11,415 nt of DNA from Deltaproteobacteria bacterium (GTDB lineage Bacteria; UBA10199; GCA-002796325; JACPFF01): NCBI GenBank assembly GCA_016183065.1, contig JACPFF010000024.1, forward strand, positions 1 to 11,415, read 5' to 3'. Shown piece after piece: positions 3,093-11,415 of this stretch (positions are counted from its first letter, which is position 1; every line of letters starts with the position of its first letter). Position numbers and translations under genes: made by a program. The notes under the pieces are model-generated. The model did no database searches. It saw only the letters and a program-made list of their open reading frames with translations, and had not been told where the DNA came from.

Positions 3093-3194
3093 ATGGAAAA
3101 ATTTCCAGACGGAAAGAGCTGGTTGAACTTTTACCGCATATGGACAGCCAAGGAAGCCCTACTGAAAACAAGTGGCATGGGGCTGAGAGAGCCT
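3093..3194 (+). pseudogene. remnant of an Sfp-type 4'-phosphopantetheinyl transferase
   Basis: About 34 codons translate to a stretch containing FYRIWTAKEALLKTSGMGL. This is the signature of Sfp/ACPS-type phosphopantetheinyl transferases, (F/W)-x-x-W-T-x-K-E-A-x-x-K-x-x-G-x-G-L, including the Mg-binding Glu and the following Lys. The enzyme normally runs to roughly 200-240 residues. Here the frame is closed by stops just upstream (3081-3083 and 3087-3089), the earlier motifs are absent, and similarity stops after the motif. I therefore read it as a decayed fragment rather than a working gene. It implies that a carrier-protein activating enzyme once stood here. Confidence 0.6.
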
Positions 3195-3480
3195 ATCCTA
3201 AAACCACCGGTCGGCAAAGACGCCGGCATGAAAACTGAGAAAAAGCGCTCCTCTGAAGTTTCAATTACTCGGATCATAGCTGTGCTCAAAAGTGTTCTAA
3301 ATTCCGCACACTATGATCGATTCTCTGTTGCCTGCCGATTACACTTGACAGGTGATTTCTGGCAGGGCACGGAGGGGAGACTCCGAAGTGGACGTTTATG
3401 GGATTACACGTAACCGCAAAACGCCCCACAACTCCCGTATTCACAAGCGACTTGGCTGTAATAAGCAAAGCGAGCGGAAT
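3195..3480. other. gene-poor stretch without recognised content
   Basis: The frame of the phosphopantetheinyl transferase remnant continues to 3413 but no longer resembles any family I recognise. I see no RNA gene, no clear promoter and no intact coding sequence here. The base composition is lower in GC than the flanking genes, as expected for decaying or IS-derived DNA. Confidence 0.4.
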
Positions 3481-3482
3481 TA

Positions 3483-3643
3483 GTGGGGCCCCACGGGCTC
3501 ACGCCCGTGGCACCCTGAGGGGAGGCTTCGCCGGAGCACGACACCCCCCGGACTGACGTCCGGGGCCCCACGACCCAGCCGCACCGCGGCGCTGAGGGGG
3601 AGGCTCCACCGGCTTTGCCGGTGGAGGGGGCGACGTGAGCCCC
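3483..3643. repeat. cluster of GC-rich hairpin repeats
   Basis: Three perfect hairpins lie within 136 bases. The first pairs CCACGGGC (3491-3498) with GCCCGTGG (3503-3510) around a TCAC loop. The second pairs CCCCGGAC (3546-3553) with GTCCGGGG (3558-3565) around a TGAC loop. The third pairs CTCCACCGGC (3604-3613) with GCCGGTGGAG (3617-3626) around TTT. The palindrome GTGGGGCCCCAC overlaps the first hairpin at 3483-3494, and GGGGCCCCAC recurs at 3562-3571. CTGAGGGG followed by (G)AGGCT occurs after each of the first two hairpins. This two-unit layout resembles dispersed REP-like extragenic elements. It sits between convergent operons and could also slow or stop transcription, though no U-tract follows any stem. 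Confidence 0.65.
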
Positions 3644-3736
3644 TCCAATGGTGGGCGAAGGAGAGAGCGAACCTGGTAGAAATCGGGGTCTTTGAAGCAG
3701 TTTCCTCACTCATCTTTCGGTCGGCGATGGCTCCAA

Positions 3737-3811: not shown

Positions 3812-5197
3812 TCACCGATACCCGCACGCCTGCAAGGCCTCCATGATGCTGCCGTTGCCGAGGTGTTTGGGCACGACGGGATCGCCCTCCCATCGGCTGC
3901 CATCGGGCTTGAGGTATTCATCGAAGGGGAGACTCAGGTCGACATGGATACCGCTCTCCGGCGCAACAGGGTGGACGTCGTCGTAGCCGATCAGTCGCCC
4001 GGCCGTGGGGGTGCCGTACGTGCAGGTGGCGATGCGGGATTGCAGGTGATAGGCGAGGACATCGCAAAGACTCCCGCACAGTCCATTCGTGATGACGACC
4101 AAGGGGCCCTCCCACCGCGTCAATTTGTGTGCGGCCTCCGGCGTTGTGCGTTCGACGTCCCGCACATATCCCGCCGCGGTTTTGGGTCCCAAGGTCTCCC
4201 CCTCGGCAATCATTATGGCCACCGCGATGTCGCCATCCGACACGAGACTCTCGATGCGGTCCGGTAGTTGCACATGGAACTGATACCCCACGGTATAGAG
4301 GGCATTCAGTCCACCGCCCGAGGAATCGCGCAGGTCGAGGACCACGCCGTCGGCCTTTTGTATCCCGGCCTCCCAGCAGGCAAACGCCTGTTCAATGGCG
4401 TCCAGATCAAACCGGAGACCGCGGGGGTGCCACCAGAACCACGTCTTACCTCCCAGCGCCACAGAGGTGGCCACTTCCATCTCCCCGAGACAATACCCAT
4501 TCTCCTCCGAGATCTCCACGTCGCCCCAGAACGAGGGATACCCATTGCGCGAGAGCGCAAATGGCTGCTCCTCCAATACGGTCTCCCACTCGACGGCAGT
4601 GGTTTCAAGGGTCTCCTGCCCTTCGAACGCGATCTTGATAGTGTCGGTAAATCCCGGATACGGTTTCTTCCGGAACGTTGCAGTCAACGTGCGCGCGGCG
4701 ATTTCAAGAGCACTCGTCGTGGACGATTGCGGTTCCAATGCCGCACGATCTGCCAGCAGCTCCAGGATCGGCCGCCCATGCATGGCCACCACTTTCTTCC
4801 CGACATACGGCAGCAACGACACCGCGAATGCAGCAGCCACGCGCACCTCCTGCGTGGTCACATCATAGGTCAGCATCAGCGGATAGGTTTTCGAGGGCGC
4901 GTCACTACTGTAGATTTGAAAATCGGCATGGCCATCGGGCATCAGGGCCCGAAGGGCCCACAGCCCCTCGACCAGCGGTTTCCCTGCAATGGCGGCCAGA
5001 CACTTTTGCAAGAAGGCCTCTTTCCCATCGGGATAATGATACCGCAACCCCTGCCAATTCTCCGCATAGATCACGCACGATGTCGCCAGAACCTCCTGCG
5101 GCGTGGGCGGCGTGACTGCTGTCGCACGGCTAGCCTGCATCAGCATAAAGAGGAGAAGTGACACCAAGAAGTGCCATGTGCCTGTTCTCTTTCTCAT
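3812..5197 (-). CDS. secreted S41-family (C-terminal processing-like) serine protease
   Basis: The protein has 461 residues from the ATG at 5197. I chose this start because it begins a textbook signal peptide: Arg/Lys-rich residues 1-4, the hydrophobic core FLVSLLLFMLM and cleavage after ATA near residue 27. AAAGG stands 7 bases upstream. The mature protein would act in the periplasm or outside the cell. Residues about 115-150 (VGKKVVAMHGRPILELL) resemble a PDZ-type strand-turn. VVLDLRDSSGGGLNA (285-299) is the S41 motif, and NGLCGSLCDVLA (371-382) aligns with the nucleophile segment of tail-specific proteases, making Ser376 the likely nucleophile. At the position of the usual general-base Lys, 25 residues on, there is Arg401 (GTPTAGRLIG). 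The enzyme may use a different dyad or be a binding protein. It overlaps the upstream peptidase gene by 68 bases. Confidence 0.8.
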   Translation of the reverse strand: MRKRTGTWHFLVSLLLFMLMQASRATAVTPPTPQEVLATSCVIYAENWQGLRYHYPDGKEAFLQKCLAAIAGKPLVEGLWALRALMPDGHADFQIYSSDAPSKTYPLMLTYDVTTQEVRVAAAFAVSLLPYVGKKVVAMHGRPILELLADRAALEPQSSTTSALEIAARTLTATFRKKPYPGFTDTIKIAFEGQETLETTAVEWETVLEEQPFALSRNGYPSFWGDVEISEENGYCLGEMEVATSVALGGKTWFWWHPRGLRFDLDAIEQAFACWEAGIQKADGVVLDLRDSSGGGLNALYTVGYQFHVQLPDRIESLVSDGDIAVAIMIAEGETLGPKTAAGYVRDVERTTPEAAHKLTRWEGPLVVITNGLCGSLCDVLAYHLQSRIATCTYGTPTAGRLIGYDDVHPVAPESGIHVDLSLPFDEYLKPDGSRWEGDPVVPKHLGNGSIMEALQACGYR

Positions 5198-7118
5198 CGT
5201 GAGCCTTTCGCTTCTGGTTGAGAAACCGTTCAAACATGTCGACGGTGATCGTCTTGAGCCAGTCGTTGATTGATGCAGTTCTTGTGGCCAAGCACTCCTC
5301 GACACAGCAGAAGCCGAGAAAATATCCGTACTTTGGAAATGTCTCCCCCCGGGAGATGACAAATGGATGCGACAGGTGTCGAGGCTCAACCAGAGTATGT
5401 CTCCCCCGTCGAATGATCCACACATCCCCGCTGAGCCATTGCCAGAGAGCAGTGGCCAACATGGAGGCCTCTGCTGCATATCGCGCATAGTCCGCGTCGC
5501 TAAAGCCGAGCGCCCGCGCGGGAGAAATTCCCAGCAGATCAATAGTGGCTTTGCAGGCCAGGCCCTCGCCCAAGGCCGATTTCATCAACGATGGCACGCG
5601 CAGCGATTGCAGTAGCGGATTCGTAAGCGTATGGATCATTTCATGCATCAACACCCGTTGCAGATCGTGCGGTTTCAGTTTTTCCATGGAGAGGGCAATG
5701 CCATAGGACCGGTTTGCGGCATTAAAGGGCGCCCCGGCGAACACGTGGATGTCAACGACGCTGGGATCACTTCGAGCATCCCCACACCACTGTCGGACCA
5801 AATGGAAACACTCCGTTGCGCATGCACGAATCCGCTTGGTCCATTGCTCAGAGGAGAGCAGAGATTTTTTCCATTGATCCCAGTCCTCCTGCGCAAATGT
5901 GATTGCTGGAAGACCAAAACGGGCGTGCAAGGCGTTCCATGTCGGCAGCACCTTGTGGAGAGAGTCGACATAATTCCCGGACTGATATGCCGCCTTACGC
6001 AGTGGCTGGAGATGATCATGCACACGGATATCCGGATGCGCGATTGTTGACTGGGGCGCAATCACTGATCGTACACGATCCTGCCGTGTAAACGTCCGCA
6101 CCCCTTCTGCAAGTTGCTCCTGCAAGCTCACCACATCGGCCACAGTCACGCGCTCTGCACGCCATTCTTGTTCTCTACGACCATTGTGAGCGAATTCCGA
6201 AGGGGTCACGAGACAGGCGGCGCGGCCACCCCATCGCACCCATTGGCTCGCCTCACAACTCCCGTTCGTCAAATCGAGTGGATTGACACCAAGCCAATCT
6301 GTCAGCACCCCGCGGCGATCGGAACGACGCCACGAGGTCCCCTGACCGCAGAAATGGGCCAATGCTGGATATTCGGGCGTCACCTCAAGCGAGTAGAGCA
6401 TTGGCCAGTCCTGGATGGCAATCCCGAAATGTATTGACACATCCCGATGTGCATGAAGCCCACTGAAGCCGATTTCCTCATCCAGAGTCAGGAGTCCCAA
6501 CAGGTCTTGAGGGCGGTGTTGCACATAATAGGCAAGAATGGCCGCACAGCCCACATGATCGTCCAACCCCCACCCCTCGAACCAATCCTTGCGGACCATC
6601 CAGAGGTTATTGTGGTGAGGACCTCGTAAATAGCCCGGCAGTCGCACGACACTTTTTGTCTGGAACGAGATCCAAGACTCCTTGAGCCCCTGCCGTTGCG
6701 TATCGATCAATACCTCTTCCACAAAATCGCCATCAGCATCACACAGCATCATGCGTCGCCCTATGAGCCGCGCAGGAAGACCGCCTTGCACCACGGCGCT
6801 GTATCGATGCCATCCATTGGTGGTCGCATCGTCGAGGTGATGCGTAACGATAGCACCGGGATGGTCGAGATGGGCATGCAATACGAGGCGAGTCGTTGTA
6901 TTCCTGATATTGGCAAACCATCTCTGCATAGTATGCGTACCGAGCAACACATTGCCATAGACATCGCGGCAATGCGCGATACCTGCTCTGGCAAGTCGAT
7001 CGCTGAAGCGATACCAGCTCTTGGACGTCCACTGCCAGCCGGGAACCAGAGGAAACTGTTCAATCCACGCAAGCCAATCGGAAAAATCTTTTACAGATAC
7101 GGTTGTTCCAGATTCCAT
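5130..7118 (-). CDS. two-domain metallopeptidase: M42/M20-like aminopeptidase fused to an HExxH zinc protease
   Basis: The ATG at 7118 gives 662 residues and is preceded by AAGGAAGAAG. A longer open frame reaches 7310 but only by reading through the maturase gene. Residues about 10-335 carry the dinuclear-zinc aminopeptidase landmarks: HAHLDHPG (81-88; H83 and D85), GLDDHVG (184-190), TLDEEIGFSG (211-220; E214/E215), SLEVTP (243-248; Glu245 where M42 usually has Asp) and SEFAHN (307-312; H311). Residues about 380-640 form a second domain with VLMHEMIHTL (489-498), a zincin HExxH motif (H492, E493, H496), and GEGLA (517-521), where Glu518 is a likely third ligand. There is no signal peptide, so it should be cytoplasmic. 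It overlaps the maturase gene by 28 bases and probably trims the modified peptide or its leader. The fold class is well supported; the substrate is inferred. Confidence 0.8.
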   Translation of the reverse strand: MESGTTVSVKDFSDWLAWIEQFPLVPGWQWTSKSWYRFSDRLARAGIAHCRDVYGNVLLGTHTMQRWFANIRNTTTRLVLHAHLDHPGAIVTHHLDDATTNGWHRYSAVVQGGLPARLIGRRMMLCDADGDFVEEVLIDTQRQGLKESWISFQTKSVVRLPGYLRGPHHNNLWMVRKDWFEGWGLDDHVGCAAILAYYVQHRPQDLLGLLTLDEEIGFSGLHAHRDVSIHFGIAIQDWPMLYSLEVTPEYPALAHFCGQGTSWRRSDRRGVLTDWLGVNPLDLTNGSCEASQWVRWGGRAACLVTPSEFAHNGRREQEWRAERVTVADVVSLQEQLAEGVRTFTRQDRVRSVIAPQSTIAHPDIRVHDHLQPLRKAAYQSGNYVDSLHKVLPTWNALHARFGLPAITFAQEDWDQWKKSLLSSEQWTKRIRACATECFHLVRQWCGDARSDPSVVDIHVFAGAPFNAANRSYGIALSMEKLKPHDLQRVLMHEMIHTLTNPLLQSLRVPSLMKSALGEGLACKATIDLLGISPARALGFSDADYARYAAEASMLATALWQWLSGDVWIIRRGRHTLVEPRHLSHPFVISRGETFPKYGYFLGFCCVEECLATRTASINDWLKTITVDMFERFLNQKRKAHDEKENRHMALLGVTSPLYADAG

Positions 7119-8560
7119 GAATCTTCTTCCTTGACCACCGTCTTGAGACCATCTGCCCTGTTTTGGAGCAGTCGCTGAATCGCGGTGGCAACGAGCTCCT
7201 TGTGGGAATCGCAATGACTCGCAAAAATTGTTCCCGATTTCCAATGGGCGCCTCGTGCAGCAATTGCACAGCCTCCGCCGCATGTTAGCGCCACAGCACA
7301 CTTTGAGCACGGCTCATACATGCCGACGTGACGACGTTGGTACATGGCATATCGGTCGTTCAACGAGATCTCTCCATTTTCATCGAAATGGCCGACGGCC
7401 AATTGCCGATATCCCGCCTCTTCGTAACAACTATAGATATCGCGACGCTGGTCGATCAGAAAGGCATTCGGTGTATTTTGCATACAGAAGTTGGTACGAC
7501 GCAGGGGAATGCCACCATTGGCCTCGATGACCGGAAGCAGACGGGTCATCTTTGTATCCAATGGCGTTCGAAATGGGACCCGCGCGGCTTCCACTCTTCG
7601 TGTCAATGTGGCTCGTGAAAAAATTGGCTCCGGATTTGTCTGGTCGTAATGATTGTGAATGGCCTGCGCGTAGGGGCTGACATTTGGATGCGACGTAATC
7701 TCATCTGCTTCCAACTGTTCCCAAAGGCATTGCAGAGAATCGACCGTATTCTTGTTCGTGTTCACGCGGATTTTGATGCGCACGCCGCGGTCCAACAGCC
7801 GGTGAATATTCGCCAGAATGGCATCGAACGTCCCTTCCCCATAATGGGTGATGCGACTCTGATCGTGGTGGAGTTTATCTCCATCGAAAGAAATCTGGAG
7901 GGCATTGACCTGTCCCGGTTCGATCCCAAAAAAATCGACAAACACCCCCAACGACGACGCATTGGAAATCGCGGAGACCGGCATTTGATAGTCGCGTGTG
8001 TATTGAAAAATGCGCTCCAGCGCTGGCCGATTTCTCTCCAGGAACGGCTCGCCACCGTAGAGATCCACGGCAATGCTGCTGTATCGTGGAACATCGGGAT
8101 AGAGTCGCTTGATGACGGTCTGAAAAATGAGGTCGACCAGCTCTGGGGTCATGACATGCGTGACATTTTGTCCTTCCTTGGCTCGCAGCGGATGTTGATA
8201 GCAATAGAAGCAGGCCAGATTGCAGTAATAACTGGGAATCAACATCAGACTCCCGCGTTGTTTTCGCTGCGCACAAATTTTCTGGTGCAACGTTTCGACA
8301 TGCTGGCAGAAGAAGCGATGTTCTGCGTCCGGTGAAAGTGTTGTCAGATGACCGCGTTTTTCCAAAAACTGCAACGTCTCAACACTCAAACCGTCAGCAC
8401 GGAAACAGCGCCCTTGGACCCGGTCCGTCGTCAGCCGGTGTGCCAAGAGGCGATCGATTTCATCGATACAGCCCGTCATCCCATGAAACAGGATCGAACT
8501 GTTACGCTGCGACGGATAGACATTCAGATACCGACTGACGTAATAACTGGCTTCGGCCAT
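7091..8560 (-). CDS. radical SAM/SPASM peptide maturase
   Basis: This is a 489-residue radical S-adenosylmethionine enzyme. CNLACFYC (113-120) supplies the CxxxCxxC ligands (C113, C117, C120) of the SAM-cleaving 4Fe-4S cluster, and YGGEP (168-172) is the SAM-contact motif. The C-terminal SPASM region has all seven cysteines: C359, C378, C418-x2-C421-x5-C427-x3-C431 and C450, enough for two auxiliary clusters. The Gly usually found five residues before the second SPASM Cys is Arg373. Residues 1-100 are the variable N-terminus typical of RiPP maturases and may hold a leader-recognition winged helix. The gene starts 3 bases after the precursor's TGA with only a weak ribosome site, which suggests translational coupling. 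It most likely installs thioether or other radical-derived cross-links on the Cys/Asp-rich peptide encoded next to it. Confidence 0.92.
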   Translation of the reverse strand: MAEASYYVSRYLNVYPSQRNSSILFHGMTGCIDEIDRLLAHRLTTDRVQGRCFRADGLSVETLQFLEKRGHLTTLSPDAEHRFFCQHVETLHQKICAQRKQRGSLMLIPSYYCNLACFYCYQHPLRAKEGQNVTHVMTPELVDLIFQTVIKRLYPDVPRYSSIAVDLYGGEPFLERNRPALERIFQYTRDYQMPVSAISNASSLGVFVDFFGIEPGQVNALQISFDGDKLHHDQSRITHYGEGTFDAILANIHRLLDRGVRIKIRVNTNKNTVDSLQCLWEQLEADEITSHPNVSPYAQAIHNHYDQTNPEPIFSRATLTRRVEAARVPFRTPLDTKMTRLLPVIEANGGIPLRRTNFCMQNTPNAFLIDQRRDIYSCYEEAGYRQLAVGHFDENGEISLNDRYAMYQRRHVGMYEPCSKCAVALTCGGGCAIAARGAHWKSGTIFASHCDSHKELVATAIQRLLQNRADGLKTVVKEEDSWNLEQPYL

Positions 8561-8563
8561 GGA

Positions 8564-8917
8564 TCAGGCCCTATCAACATCATACCCAACAACGTCGTCG
8601 CAATCCGAATCACAACTATCGTGGCCGTCACAGTCGCATCCACTGTCCACATCACAACTGCCATCTACGTCACATTTACCAACATCGTCGCAATCCGTAT
8701 CACACGGTCCGGCAATCAGTGTTCGATCCGTGGCAATCTCTGATGTAGAAAGATCGAAAAGTCCCGCATATCGTTGCAGGTTCACTGAGAGACGGATGAA
8801 TGAATCTTTGGCAAGGCTTTTCCCTGCATCCACCTGCGCACCCTCTGCCGCTTCCTTATTTGCCATGGCTTTCAAGACCTCCCCGTGCACAACCGGTGTG
8901 ATCGATTTTGTACCCAT
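8564..8917 (-). CDS. RiPP precursor peptide with a Cys/Asp hexad-repeat core
   Basis: The protein has 117 residues from the ATG at 8917. An earlier in-frame ATG at 8923 is only one base from AAAGGAG, whereas the second ATG has a normal 7-base spacing, so I chose the second. The leader, residues 1-71, has no cysteine and contains an amphipathic stretch, DSFIRLSVNLQRYAGLF (38-54), that could be the maturase recognition helix. The core begins at C72 after IAGP. It holds eight cysteines (72, 76, 82, 88, 94, 96, 102, 106) and about 17 aspartates in 46 residues. From residue 76 it runs in six-residue steps with consensus C-D-V-D-G-x. Its neighbours are a SPASM maturase and proteases. CxxD pairs recall the CxxxD thioether donors and acceptors of ranthipeptides such as freyrasin, with one residue less. 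Unmodified, the DxD pattern could also bind metal. Confidence 0.88.
   Translation of the reverse strand: MGTKSITPVVHGEVLKAMANKEAAEGAQVDAGKSLAKDSFIRLSVNLQRYAGLFDLSTSEIATDRTLIAGPCDTDCDDVGKCDVDGSCDVDSGCDCDGHDSCDSDCDDVVGYDVDRA
8567..8704 (-). repeat. repetitive core-coding segment of the precursor
   Basis: The core region is built from approximately 18-base units coding for Cys-Asp hexads. Two copies are especially close: 8591-8614 and 8681-8704 match at 22 of 24 bases and lie exactly 90 bases (five units) apart. They encode CDTDCDDV and CDSDCDDV. This points to unit duplication during evolution of the core. Confidence 0.75.
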
Positions 8918-8955
8918 ATTCATGCTCCTTTCTTGTTGTCCTTCATAGTGAGGTT

Positions 8956-9183: not shown

Positions 9184-11274
9184 TTACGTCGGCAGTTTCT
9201 GCGGGATCTTCATGGGGATGATACCATCGGCGGCGGCGCAGAGCGGATCGCTCATGAGCTCCCGCGCGGATTCCCCGCTGGCGACGAACACCTTCTTCAC
9301 GCCTTGGGCTTTCAGGTGCGTAATCACTTGATCAACGCGCCAAGTGGACTCGGGGATGTGCTTGTCGACGAAGGCAAAATCGAACTTGGTGTAATCGGGT
9401 TGGGTGGCCTCACACGCTTCCATCGACGCAAACGTGGTGATGGTTGCTAACCCGAGCCGCCGCCCTTCCATCGGCCAGACAAACCGTATCCCTTCATCAT
9501 CGTCGAGGACAAGGGCCGTCGGTTTCGCGGTTTCGCTATTCGATAGTTGAGGAGAGGGTGCTGTCGCAATGTGTGCGCTGATTGTCGTCGCTATGGATTC
9601 TGCTACAGGCTCGACCCGAACCGGCACGAATCCCGCCAAACCCTTCGGGATCAAACGCACGCCCATCTCTGCACAGCGCGCTTGGATCGGCGTTTCTTCA
9701 TAATGACTCGTCACCAAGATCGCGCGGTCGGCAACGTTCAACTGCGCGATCAACTCCAACCCGTTGTTCGGATGTCCCAGAAATTCGTAATCACAGAGGA
9801 AGTGGGTATTGGCTTGACCCTGATACCAAGTCACCACCTCGGTCCCGGAGGAAAAGTGCTGCAAGGTAATCTCCTGGGCGTCTCCTTCCAACCGCTCCTG
9901 CCAGATCTGATGAATCGAGACGTCGTCATCGACGATCACGATCGTGCTCCCGGGCGTAAGCACCAACTCCGGCACAAACCACGCCGGGGCCACCGCGCGC
10001 GGCAAGGTGAGCGTCACCGTGGTACCGACTCCCACCGTCGAGGTGAGCGTCACCGTCCCCCCCCACCTCTCGAACATCGTCCGGGCATGATACAATCCGA
10101 GTCCTGAGCCACCGTTCTTCCCAAATGATGCCCCGTGGTTCATAAGTTTTGGCAACACATCAGGCGGAATGCCTCTCCCCGTATCCGTCACCGTCAGCAC
10201 GACGCTCTCGTCTTCCTGCCGCACCGCCACCGTCACCAATCCCTGGTCCATCGCTTCCACAGCATTGTTGATCAGATTGGAGATGACCCGCTTAAACTCC
10301 ACCGGCTGCACCACCGCAAACACCCCATAACTCGCCCCATCCAACGCCGCATGAATTTCCACCCCCAACTTCGCCCGATGCTGTGTCCGCTTCTCGGAGA
10401 TCAAGGGTTCAAGCAAGCTCGACAGCAATTGCTCCGAGCACACATCGGCGCCGCCCGCTTCTCCCGCCCGTTCATGCTCTCGTTTCGCGCATAGATCATT
10501 TGCAATATCCTCAATCCGCTGCACCGCATTCCGCATCATCACCCGAGACTCTTCCGACACCCCCGCCACCTGTCCCACCATCGCTCGCAAGGCCGTCAAT
10601 GGCGACCGGATGTCGTGGGCCATCTGTTGTGCCAATTTTGCGGTGGCCGAGTCGACAGCTCTTAGTTGATTTTCCTCGCGGTTTTTTCGAACTGCTGTGA
10701 TGAGCTGGTTGATGGAATTTTCCAATGACCGCAGCTCTTCGGTCGGGGGATTGCTGTTCACACCGACGGCTAAATCGGAGGATGCCGAATTGGCGACAGC
10801 GCCTAATAGGCACTGCAAGGGGATGACGACCCGTCGGCGATAGAACACATTAATGCTAAAGAGCCCAATGACCATGATGACCAACCAGAGCACCAAAATA
10901 CGCGCCAGGGCACTGGCACTCCAGAGGCGAGTCACCGTCTGATTATGAGACCGTGACTTCACCAAGAATCCGCAGTGGCGATCGGCGTATTGCAGCGCAA
11001 TAACGACATGGATCAGGTTATCAGCATAACACTGCGCAACATCCACAGCTTCATATCGTGTAAAATTGAAACAGCCCTGCGGTAATTGTACTTGCTCAAC
11101 AATAGCGATGTTCTGCAACCCTTCTTGTATTTGAATTGATTGCAAGAGTCTTTTTTCAGCGTCGGGCTGTTCGAGCAAAATGGTGGCAAGCAATCGTTCG
11201 GTCTGCGGACCAGTATCGCGCAGCAATTCATGTGTTGCTCTTAAGCGTTCTTGAGCCTCATGCGTTTGAATCAA
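9184..11274 (-). CDS. hybrid sensor histidine kinase with two receiver domains, probably 5'-truncated
   Basis: From the TTG at 11274 the frame gives 696 residues. Residues 1-120 are a sensor segment, 124-145 (ILVLWLVIMVIGLFSINVFY region) a membrane helix, and about 146-200 a HAMP-like linker. HisKA carries the phosphoacceptor His220 (MAHDIRSPLTALR). The HATPase domain shows NLINNA (333-338), DTGRGIP (364-370) and GGSGLGL (388-394). A first receiver follows (D449-D451 acidic pocket, D495 acceptor, T522, K544), then a second (D591-D593, D637, S666, K689). There is no DNA-binding output, so the signal must pass to another protein. Kinases of this plan normally begin with a first membrane helix, which is missing; an in-frame stop lies at 11287-11289 and IS630 sequence starts just beyond. 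I infer that the 5' end was lost to the insertion. It could otherwise control the sigma-54 operon next door. Confidence 0.85.
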   Translation of the reverse strand: MIQTHEAQERLRATHELLRDTGPQTERLLATILLEQPDAEKRLLQSIQIQEGLQNIAIVEQVQLPQGCFNFTRYEAVDVAQCYADNLIHVVIALQYADRHCGFLVKSRSHNQTVTRLWSASALARILVLWLVIMVIGLFSINVFYRRRVVIPLQCLLGAVANSASSDLAVGVNSNPPTEELRSLENSINQLITAVRKNREENQLRAVDSATAKLAQQMAHDIRSPLTALRAMVGQVAGVSEESRVMMRNAVQRIEDIANDLCAKREHERAGEAGGADVCSEQLLSSLLEPLISEKRTQHRAKLGVEIHAALDGASYGVFAVVQPVEFKRVISNLINNAVEAMDQGLVTVAVRQEDESVVLTVTDTGRGIPPDVLPKLMNHGASFGKNGGSGLGLYHARTMFERWGGTVTLTSTVGVGTTVTLTLPRAVAPAWFVPELVLTPGSTIVIVDDDVSIHQIWQERLEGDAQEITLQHFSSGTEVVTWYQGQANTHFLCDYEFLGHPNNGLELIAQLNVADRAILVTSHYEETPIQARCAEMGVRLIPKGLAGFVPVRVEPVAESIATTISAHIATAPSPQLSNSETAKPTALVLDDDEGIRFVWPMEGRRLGLATITTFASMEACEATQPDYTKFDFAFVDKHIPESTWRVDQVITHLKAQGVKKVFVASGESARELMSDPLCAAADGIIPMKIPQKLPT

Positions 11275-11305
11275 ATATACTCGGCGTCATAAATAAATGC
11301 CGAAA

Positions 11306-11413
11306 TCAAACAACGCATAACGATTGCAGAACCTGACTTCGTAATCGCCAATCGCAAAACGTTTTCTCCACCACATCTATGACATCGCCAAGGCTCTCAA
11401 AATATACGTTGTG
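11306..11413 (-). CDS. IS630-family transposase, C-terminal end (partial)
   Basis: A minus-strand frame enters from the right edge and ends at the TGA at 11308-11306, giving 35 residues. It begins HNVYFESLGDVIDVVEK and ends LQSLCVV, which matches the tail of IS630 transposases (Thr-His-Asn-x-Tyr-Phe, a helix, then Leu-Cys-Val near the end). The element boundary probably lies between 11275 and 11305. Several TA dinucleotides at 11275-11280 could be the target duplication, but the other end is outside the window. The match is short, so the call rests on the motif and on the truncated look of the adjacent kinase gene. It differs in sequence from the transposase tail at the left edge, so the two are not copies of one element. 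Confidence 0.55.
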   Translation of the reverse strand, partial: HNVYFESLGDVIDVVEKTFCDWRLRSQVLQSLCVV

Positions 11414-11415
11414 AA

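Follow-up and report, generated by a model that had tools for sequence, protein, structure and literature searches.

A probable RiPP operon with a SPASM radical SAM maturase and two putative peptidase genes in an uncultivated deltaproteobacterium

Described SPASM systems and the locus considered here

When considered among the ribosomally synthesized and post-translationally modified peptides (RiPPs), the systems closest to the locus described here are built around a radical S-adenosylmethionine (SAM) maturase of the SPASM type. The locus occupies positions 3,812 to 8,917 of contig JACPFF010000024.1 (assembly GCA_016183065.1) of an uncultivated deltaproteobacterium; the whole stretch that was analysed, referred to below as the window, is this one complete contig of 11,415 bp, belonging to a metagenome-assembled genome (MAG) of 1.97 Mb. 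Four minus-strand open reading frames (ORFs) were confirmed in it, and they probably form a RiPP operon consisting of a precursor (P0001), a maturase (P0002), a putative peptidase (P0003) and an S41-family protein (P0004).

The freyrasin-type ranthipeptide system PapA/PapB (NF047865) resembles the window in that a SPASM maturase stands beside a Cys- and Asp-rich precursor; however, PapA has six CX3D/E motifs where P0001 has one, and P0002 remains below the cut-off of the PapB model. CteB, of the SCIFF system (TIGR03974; structure 5wgg), is likewise SPASM-type and shares with P0002 an overall fold that includes the N-terminal region, although identity in the structural alignment is 18% and P0001 is not a SCIFF peptide. 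The CefA/CefB system (NF038107) and TIGR04463 also have Cys-rich precursors alongside, and theirs are the best-scoring NCBIfam models for P0002; the difference here lies in the Cys spacing of P0001, which is mostly six, with four and two, and not every fifth residue, and in the scores of P0002, which are far below both cut-offs. Finally, precursor/SPASM/M50 loci of Elusimicrobiota (L048 and L170-L189) share with the window one maturase clade, an adjacent, usually Cys-rich peptide and a HExxH protein directly downstream, but differ from it in their SLN...LTLEKAxDRMEFEALP leader, their M50-type membrane protease, the lack of an S41 protein and, often, a secreted upstream protein resembling tetratricopeptide repeat (TPR) proteins.

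A Cys/Asp-rich precursor beside a SPASM maturase

P0001 (8564..8917, minus strand) is a peptide of 117 residues with a leader of about 70 residues and a Cys/Asp-rich core, CDTDCDDVGKCDVDGSCDVDSGCDCDGHDSCDSDCDD. Each of its eight Cys (72, 76, 82, 88, 94, 96, 102 and 106) lies in the C-terminal 46 residues, and the presumed cross-linked region, residues 72-106 (8600..8704, minus strand), contains five C-D-x-D units. Asp residues total 21, and a stretch of 40 residues holds eight Cys and 15 Asp. Since no ORF of at least 50 amino acids with even six Cys and ten Asp per 40 residues was found in 1.65 Mb of DNA from the same genome and related DNA, a chance origin is ruled out, and a recent DNA repeat is excluded by the synonymous variation of the repeat codons (GAT 14 and GAC 7, TGT 5 and TGC 3). 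P0001 has no match in Pfam or NCBIfam, and a search of 60 genomes returned only P0001 itself. The start at 8917 is the second in-frame ATG and lies 7 nt after a Shine-Dalgarno-like AAAGGAG (8925..8931, minus strand); the first ATG, at 8923, is a possible alternative.

Three bases (8561-8563) separate the precursor gene (8917-8564) from that of P0002 (7091..8560, minus strand), a protein of 489 residues with a CX3CX2C triad (Cys 113, 117 and 120) and seven Cys in the SPASM region (359, 378, 418, 421, 427, 431 and 450), all of which are invariant in an alignment of 36 sequences. The general Radical SAM and SPASM models recognize P0002, which scores 37.5 bits against TIGR04085 (cut-off 27). The next gene, that of P0003, starts at 7118 and overlaps the maturase gene by 28 bases, whereas that of P0004 starts at 5197 and overlaps the P0003 gene, which ends at 5130, by 68. 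A first-pass annotation, for which a model read the letters of the window, had claimed four co-directional genes with this gap and these overlaps, headed by a Cys/Asp-rich 117-residue peptide next to a seven-Cys SPASM radical SAM enzyme; the ORF coordinates, the eight-Cys, Asp-rich C-terminus, the alignment and the SPASM model agree with it throughout.

The structure of P0002, predicted with 35 homologues (mean predicted local distance difference test score, pLDDT, of 90.3), has two solved structures tied as its closest: anSMEcpe (4k36; Z of 26.7 over 342 residues) and CteB, residues 1-450 of which align with residues 9-468 of the model (Z of 26.7 over 398 residues), the CteB N-terminal region included. 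The structure of TigE could also be aligned with the model along TigE's length. Judged by the alignment with CteB, the N-terminus of P0002 (residues 1-95, approximately) would be a leader-binding region resembling a RiPP recognition element (RRE); no PqqD, which usually fills this role as a stand-alone protein, was found in the genome of the window. The locus therefore has the arrangement by which a RiPP operon is recognized, namely a short precursor beside a modifying enzyme with a predicted capacity for leader binding.

A maturase clade with recurrent precursors

Single-sequence scans with P0002 of genome contig and viral contig collections gave no match, and 80 wider loci related to P0002 were obtained by scanning GTDB genomes with a profile. 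The best match belonged to an Elusimicrobia MAG, and of 340 genomes searched from its phylum, 17 had matches at E of 1e-25 or lower, most with 34-39% identity over the full length and with E down to 4e-95. In a midpoint-rooted FastTree phylogeny, P0002 falls into a clade of 26 members with a support of 1.0, comprising Elusimicrobiota together with members from Smithellaceae (L049), Deltaproteobacteria (L050), Oligoflexia (L051) and Desulfobacteraceae (L055). This clade and its precursors are uncatalogued in Pfam and NCBIfam, and a search of an open-access library turned up no paper that describes such RiPP maturases in Elusimicrobiota.

A peptide with the leader SLNxTxxExLTLEKAxDRMEFEALP is found near the maturase in 15 of the 21 loci examined from Elusimicrobiota (L048 and 14 of L170-L189), and two of the six loci lacking it end at contig ends. 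The cores are usually Cys-rich and sometimes Asp-rich too; examples of cores are CDCDGPVGYINCHPYKG, RCGTYSDPDDPCPDDDPLDY, CNGVNTGCECNNSYTNCDCNGSKSTCSCNDG and PCDCDGPVGYINCHPYKG. A second precursor family, characterized by VGxITPxNLLSG plus CCGP, adjoins the maturase in L049-L051. More distant relatives are accompanied by leaders of the ExLNxxxLDxExLExRLE type, or by Nif11-like ones in Selenomonadaceae and Synergistaceae, and CDxDC-like cores occur among them in Ktedonosporobacter (four precursor copies, e.g. WDCGCDSDC) and in Selenomonadaceae (WDCGCDNDCNC). None of the precursors of relatives that were scanned exceeded a cut-off in Pfam or NCBIfam. When small ORFs on the same strand and at most 600 bp away were considered, with Cys counted in the last 50 residues, one with at least three Cys was present near 59% of the 80 maturases as opposed to 15% of 295 control genes, and one with at least five Cys near 23% as opposed to 3%. 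The first-pass annotation had named as evidence against itself the consistent lack of an adjacent Cys/Asp-rich peptide beside homologous maturases; what was found instead was a precursor in 15 of 21 Elusimicrobiota loci and in L049-L051, and an adjacency well above that of the controls. This recurrence, together with the clade, supports the precursor/SPASM-maturase relationship proposed at first pass.

An alternative would be that P0001 binds metal as an unmodified protein and that the radical SAM enzyme has another target, as might be suspected from a core so extremely rich in Asp and Cys and from the fact that P0001 carries none of the leader types of the related precursors. The 3-base gap to the maturase gene and the systematic adjacency of precursors within the clade make this highly improbable. 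P0001 is strongly indicated as the substrate of P0002, which very probably cross-links it.

Some further features of the related loci may be mentioned. The Smithellaceae maturase and its peptide are flanked by two secreted small Kunitz/BPTI-like proteins (L049:8961-9332 and L049:11065-11469). Among the Elusimicrobiota loci L171-L186, the secreted TPR-like protein is often encoded immediately upstream of the maturase, and in some loci a DUF4097 protein is encoded downstream. In Elusimicrobia GWB2_63_22 (L048:12528-14502), the M50-type protease is followed by another radical SAM/SPASM protein and by a kinase resembling aminoglycoside phosphotransferases. In the window's own class (G010, G013, G020 and others), the SPASM enzymes were set apart as another system, since they are flanked by TonB receptors and solute-binding proteins and have no Cys-rich peptide beside them; in L023-L032, for instance, the SPASM radical SAM enzyme is located between a TonB-type receptor and extracellular solute-binding plus sensor-like proteins.

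Two putative peptidase genes downstream of the maturase

P0003 (5130..7118, minus strand) is a putative two-domain metallopeptidase of 662 residues that lacks a signal peptide and combines an M42 domain (about residues 1-350) with a HExxH/DUF2268-like domain (about 376-640). It scores 24.6-26.2 bits against Pfam M42 (cut-off 23.2) and, marginally, 24.3 bits with the domain alone or 21.3 bits with the whole protein against DUF2268, a family of predicted zinc proteases (cut-off 23.6). Both domains therefore reach the Pfam gathering score when scanned apart, as expected for the M42-like/HExxH fusion seen at first pass. The M42 metal-ligand motifs HLD, LDD, DEE and the C-terminal H are kept on alignment with ordinary M42 proteins, except that one ligand is E rather than the usual D. 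The fusion itself was not found in 99 and then about 385 diverse genomes, where only ordinary M42 proteins and weak matches appeared, nor in a search of plasmids or in the eight genomes with the nearest named maturases; a single-sequence fold of P0003 was unusable (pLDDT of 32).

The HExxH domain could conceivably serve oxidative tailoring with the Asp-rich core as its substrate, in the manner of HEXXH enzymes that depend on alpha-ketoglutarate and hydroxylate the His, Asp or Gln residues of RiPP cores. Enzymes of this type are found together with radical SAM RiPP enzymes and also as fusions to them, and one, ChlH, hydroxylates His and Asp (PMC12636437). For P0003 this role is distinctly improbable, given that the protein has no NCBIfam match even at E of 1 and that the domain alone attains the DUF2268 gathering score. 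Moreover, a GEGLA motif is located 25 residues after HExxH, which we take to fit the third ligand of a metalloprotease.

P0004 (3812..5197, minus strand; 461 residues) has a Sec-type signal at about residues 1-27, read by eye, and scores 40.2 bits against Pfam S41 (cut-off 24), so that the secreted S41 protease of the first-pass annotation stands as an S41-family protein. Its putative nucleophile, Ser376 (GSLCD), is aligned with the GSAS Ser of another S41-like protein, and it carries a PDGH motif, presumably indicative of a tricorn-like Ser/His arrangement. No described case of an S41 peptidase in RiPP papers was found in a limited test of the open-access literature.

In nearly all Elusimicrobiota loci of sufficient length, the maturase gene is immediately followed by one for a HExxH protein. 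This is an M50-like membrane protein, with a weak Pfam M50 match below the cut-off and weak similarity to the YydH/LiaK epipeptide and the daptide proteases. At the same place the window has P0003, which is unrelated to it, followed by P0004. A genome search of the kind proposed at first pass retrieved relatives with adjacent precursors but no second pair of P0003/P0004 peptidases, and when 106 neighbours of relatives were surveyed with Pfam, families with a single match not being listed, S41, M42 and DUF2268 were outside the 25 commonest families. The pairing of an M42-HExxH protein with an S41 protease is unusual, and its occurrence was seen once. One genome (G197) gave weak matches to both proteins and was rejected, as the genes lie on different contigs in unrelated surroundings.

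P0003 and P0004 might also be regarded as clearance or self-protection factors that destroy mature or stray peptide, rather than as maturation proteases. The contig has neither an exporter nor an immunity gene, and other members of the clade use the M50-type protease instead, which implies that the core pathway can generally do without P0003 and P0004. Nevertheless, their genes overlap and are co-directional with that of the maturase, and the recurrence of an unrelated HExxH gene right after the maturase suggests a processing need in common, so that a purely destructive role appears rather doubtful.

The proposed pathway and its chemistry

In the pathway proposed here, P0002 would bind the leader of P0001 through its N-terminal RRE-like region and, by means of SAM radical chemistry and its SPASM clusters, install cross-links in the Cys/Asp core, most likely ranthipeptide-like Cys-to-Asp thioethers. 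Confidence in this bond type is moderate. PapB links Cys with Asp and accepts 0 to 6 residues between the two (Cys-Xn-Asp; PMC9413430), a range by which the CDxD spacing would be covered. Cytoplasmic P0003 may then cut off the leader through endoproteolysis by its HExxH domain and trim the product through aminopeptidase activity of its M42 domain, while P0004 may have the product, or surplus peptide, as its substrate beyond the cytoplasmic membrane. Leader removal by two proteases, or by an endo- plus an aminopeptidase, has precedent in other RiPPs (PMC10885120); for P0003 and P0004 these roles, including leader removal and the processing in two compartments put forward at first pass, are suggested with weak to moderate confidence.

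It is also possible, albeit unlikely, that the operon yields another maturase product, namely C-alpha thioethers as in sactipeptides, C-C bonds or cyclophanes, or epimerisation, with Asp providing metal or calcium ligands of the finished peptide. The scores of P0002 are comparable across chemistries (CefB NF038107, 111.5 bits, cut-off 600; TIGR04463, 101, cut-off 525; PapB NF047865, 89.3, cut-off 340; Clo7bot, 89, cut-off 600; DynA, 78), the SCIFF maturase model TIGR03974 giving 54.6 (cut-off 425). Furthermore, the nearest Elusimicrobiota cores are poorer in Asp than P0001, whose CDxDxDG-like strings resemble calcium-binding loops. In contrast, the best structural match that includes the N-terminal region is CteB, a thioether maturase, and the pairing of Cys with Asp recurs among the relatives.

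Several observations weigh against the four genes being a RiPP operon that works as proposed. P0002 reaches the cut-off of no catalogued maturase family among the NCBIfam equivalogs. The single CX3D motif of P0001 (C96-D100) sets it apart from PapA, its repeated unit being CDxD; the Elusimicrobiota precursor profile gives it 2.1 bits, from the core alone; and it has neither leader type of the clade precursors, so that its identity as substrate is based on adjacency and core composition. Its leader represents a third type. No homologue of P0003 or P0004 lies near any relative found, and P0004 has Arg after TAG where CtpA-type enzymes have the catalytic Lys, for which reason it is considered a putative protease only. 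Lastly, an exporter is absent from the 11,415-bp contig, in accordance with the first-pass annotation, and so is an immunity gene. All things considered, we assign a probability of about 0.72 to the whole reading, in which the four genes are a RiPP operon and P0001 is processed by P0002, P0003 and P0004.

A more speculative extension is that the window and the Elusimicrobiota loci might represent one uncatalogued RiPP class, in which the maturases would turn Cys/Asp (or Cys/Asn) repeats into a cross-linked peptide that is compact, acidic and possibly metal-binding. In the lineage of the window, the M50-type protease would have been replaced by the bifunctional cutting and trimming protein P0003, with P0004 finishing the product outside the membrane.

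Genomic context

Upstream of the precursor gene, at a distance of 266 nt, a gene for a hybrid histidine kinase with receiver domains (9184..11274, minus strand) has its 5' end near the contig end; it is a candidate member of the operon and, lying on the same strand, may regulate it. On the other side, a short ORF (3093-3413) that matches phosphopantetheinyl transferases only in part (ACPS, 27 bits over 26 residues) is probably a gene remnant. Next to it, at 3482-3658, is a dispersed repeat of about 170 bp, rich in GC and containing a hairpin, that has no Rfam match; the MAG of 1.97 Mb contains 53 full or partial matches to it, many of them 90-97% identical. Mis-binning of the contig was considered and is unlikely, since this repeat is common to the contig and the MAG and tetranucleotide usage is comparable in both. 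The last 139 bases of the window (11276-11414) are identical to the end of another contig of the MAG (C1), indicating that both contigs run into one shared repeat.

Significance

A well-supported clade of SPASM maturases with precursor families of its own, unnamed in Pfam and NCBIfam, is now visible. P0003 and P0004 would add two further protease types tied to RiPP maturation, and with the CDxD repeat of P0001, Cys-to-Asp cross-linking could be tested directly by mass spectrometry at a spacing other than that of PapA.

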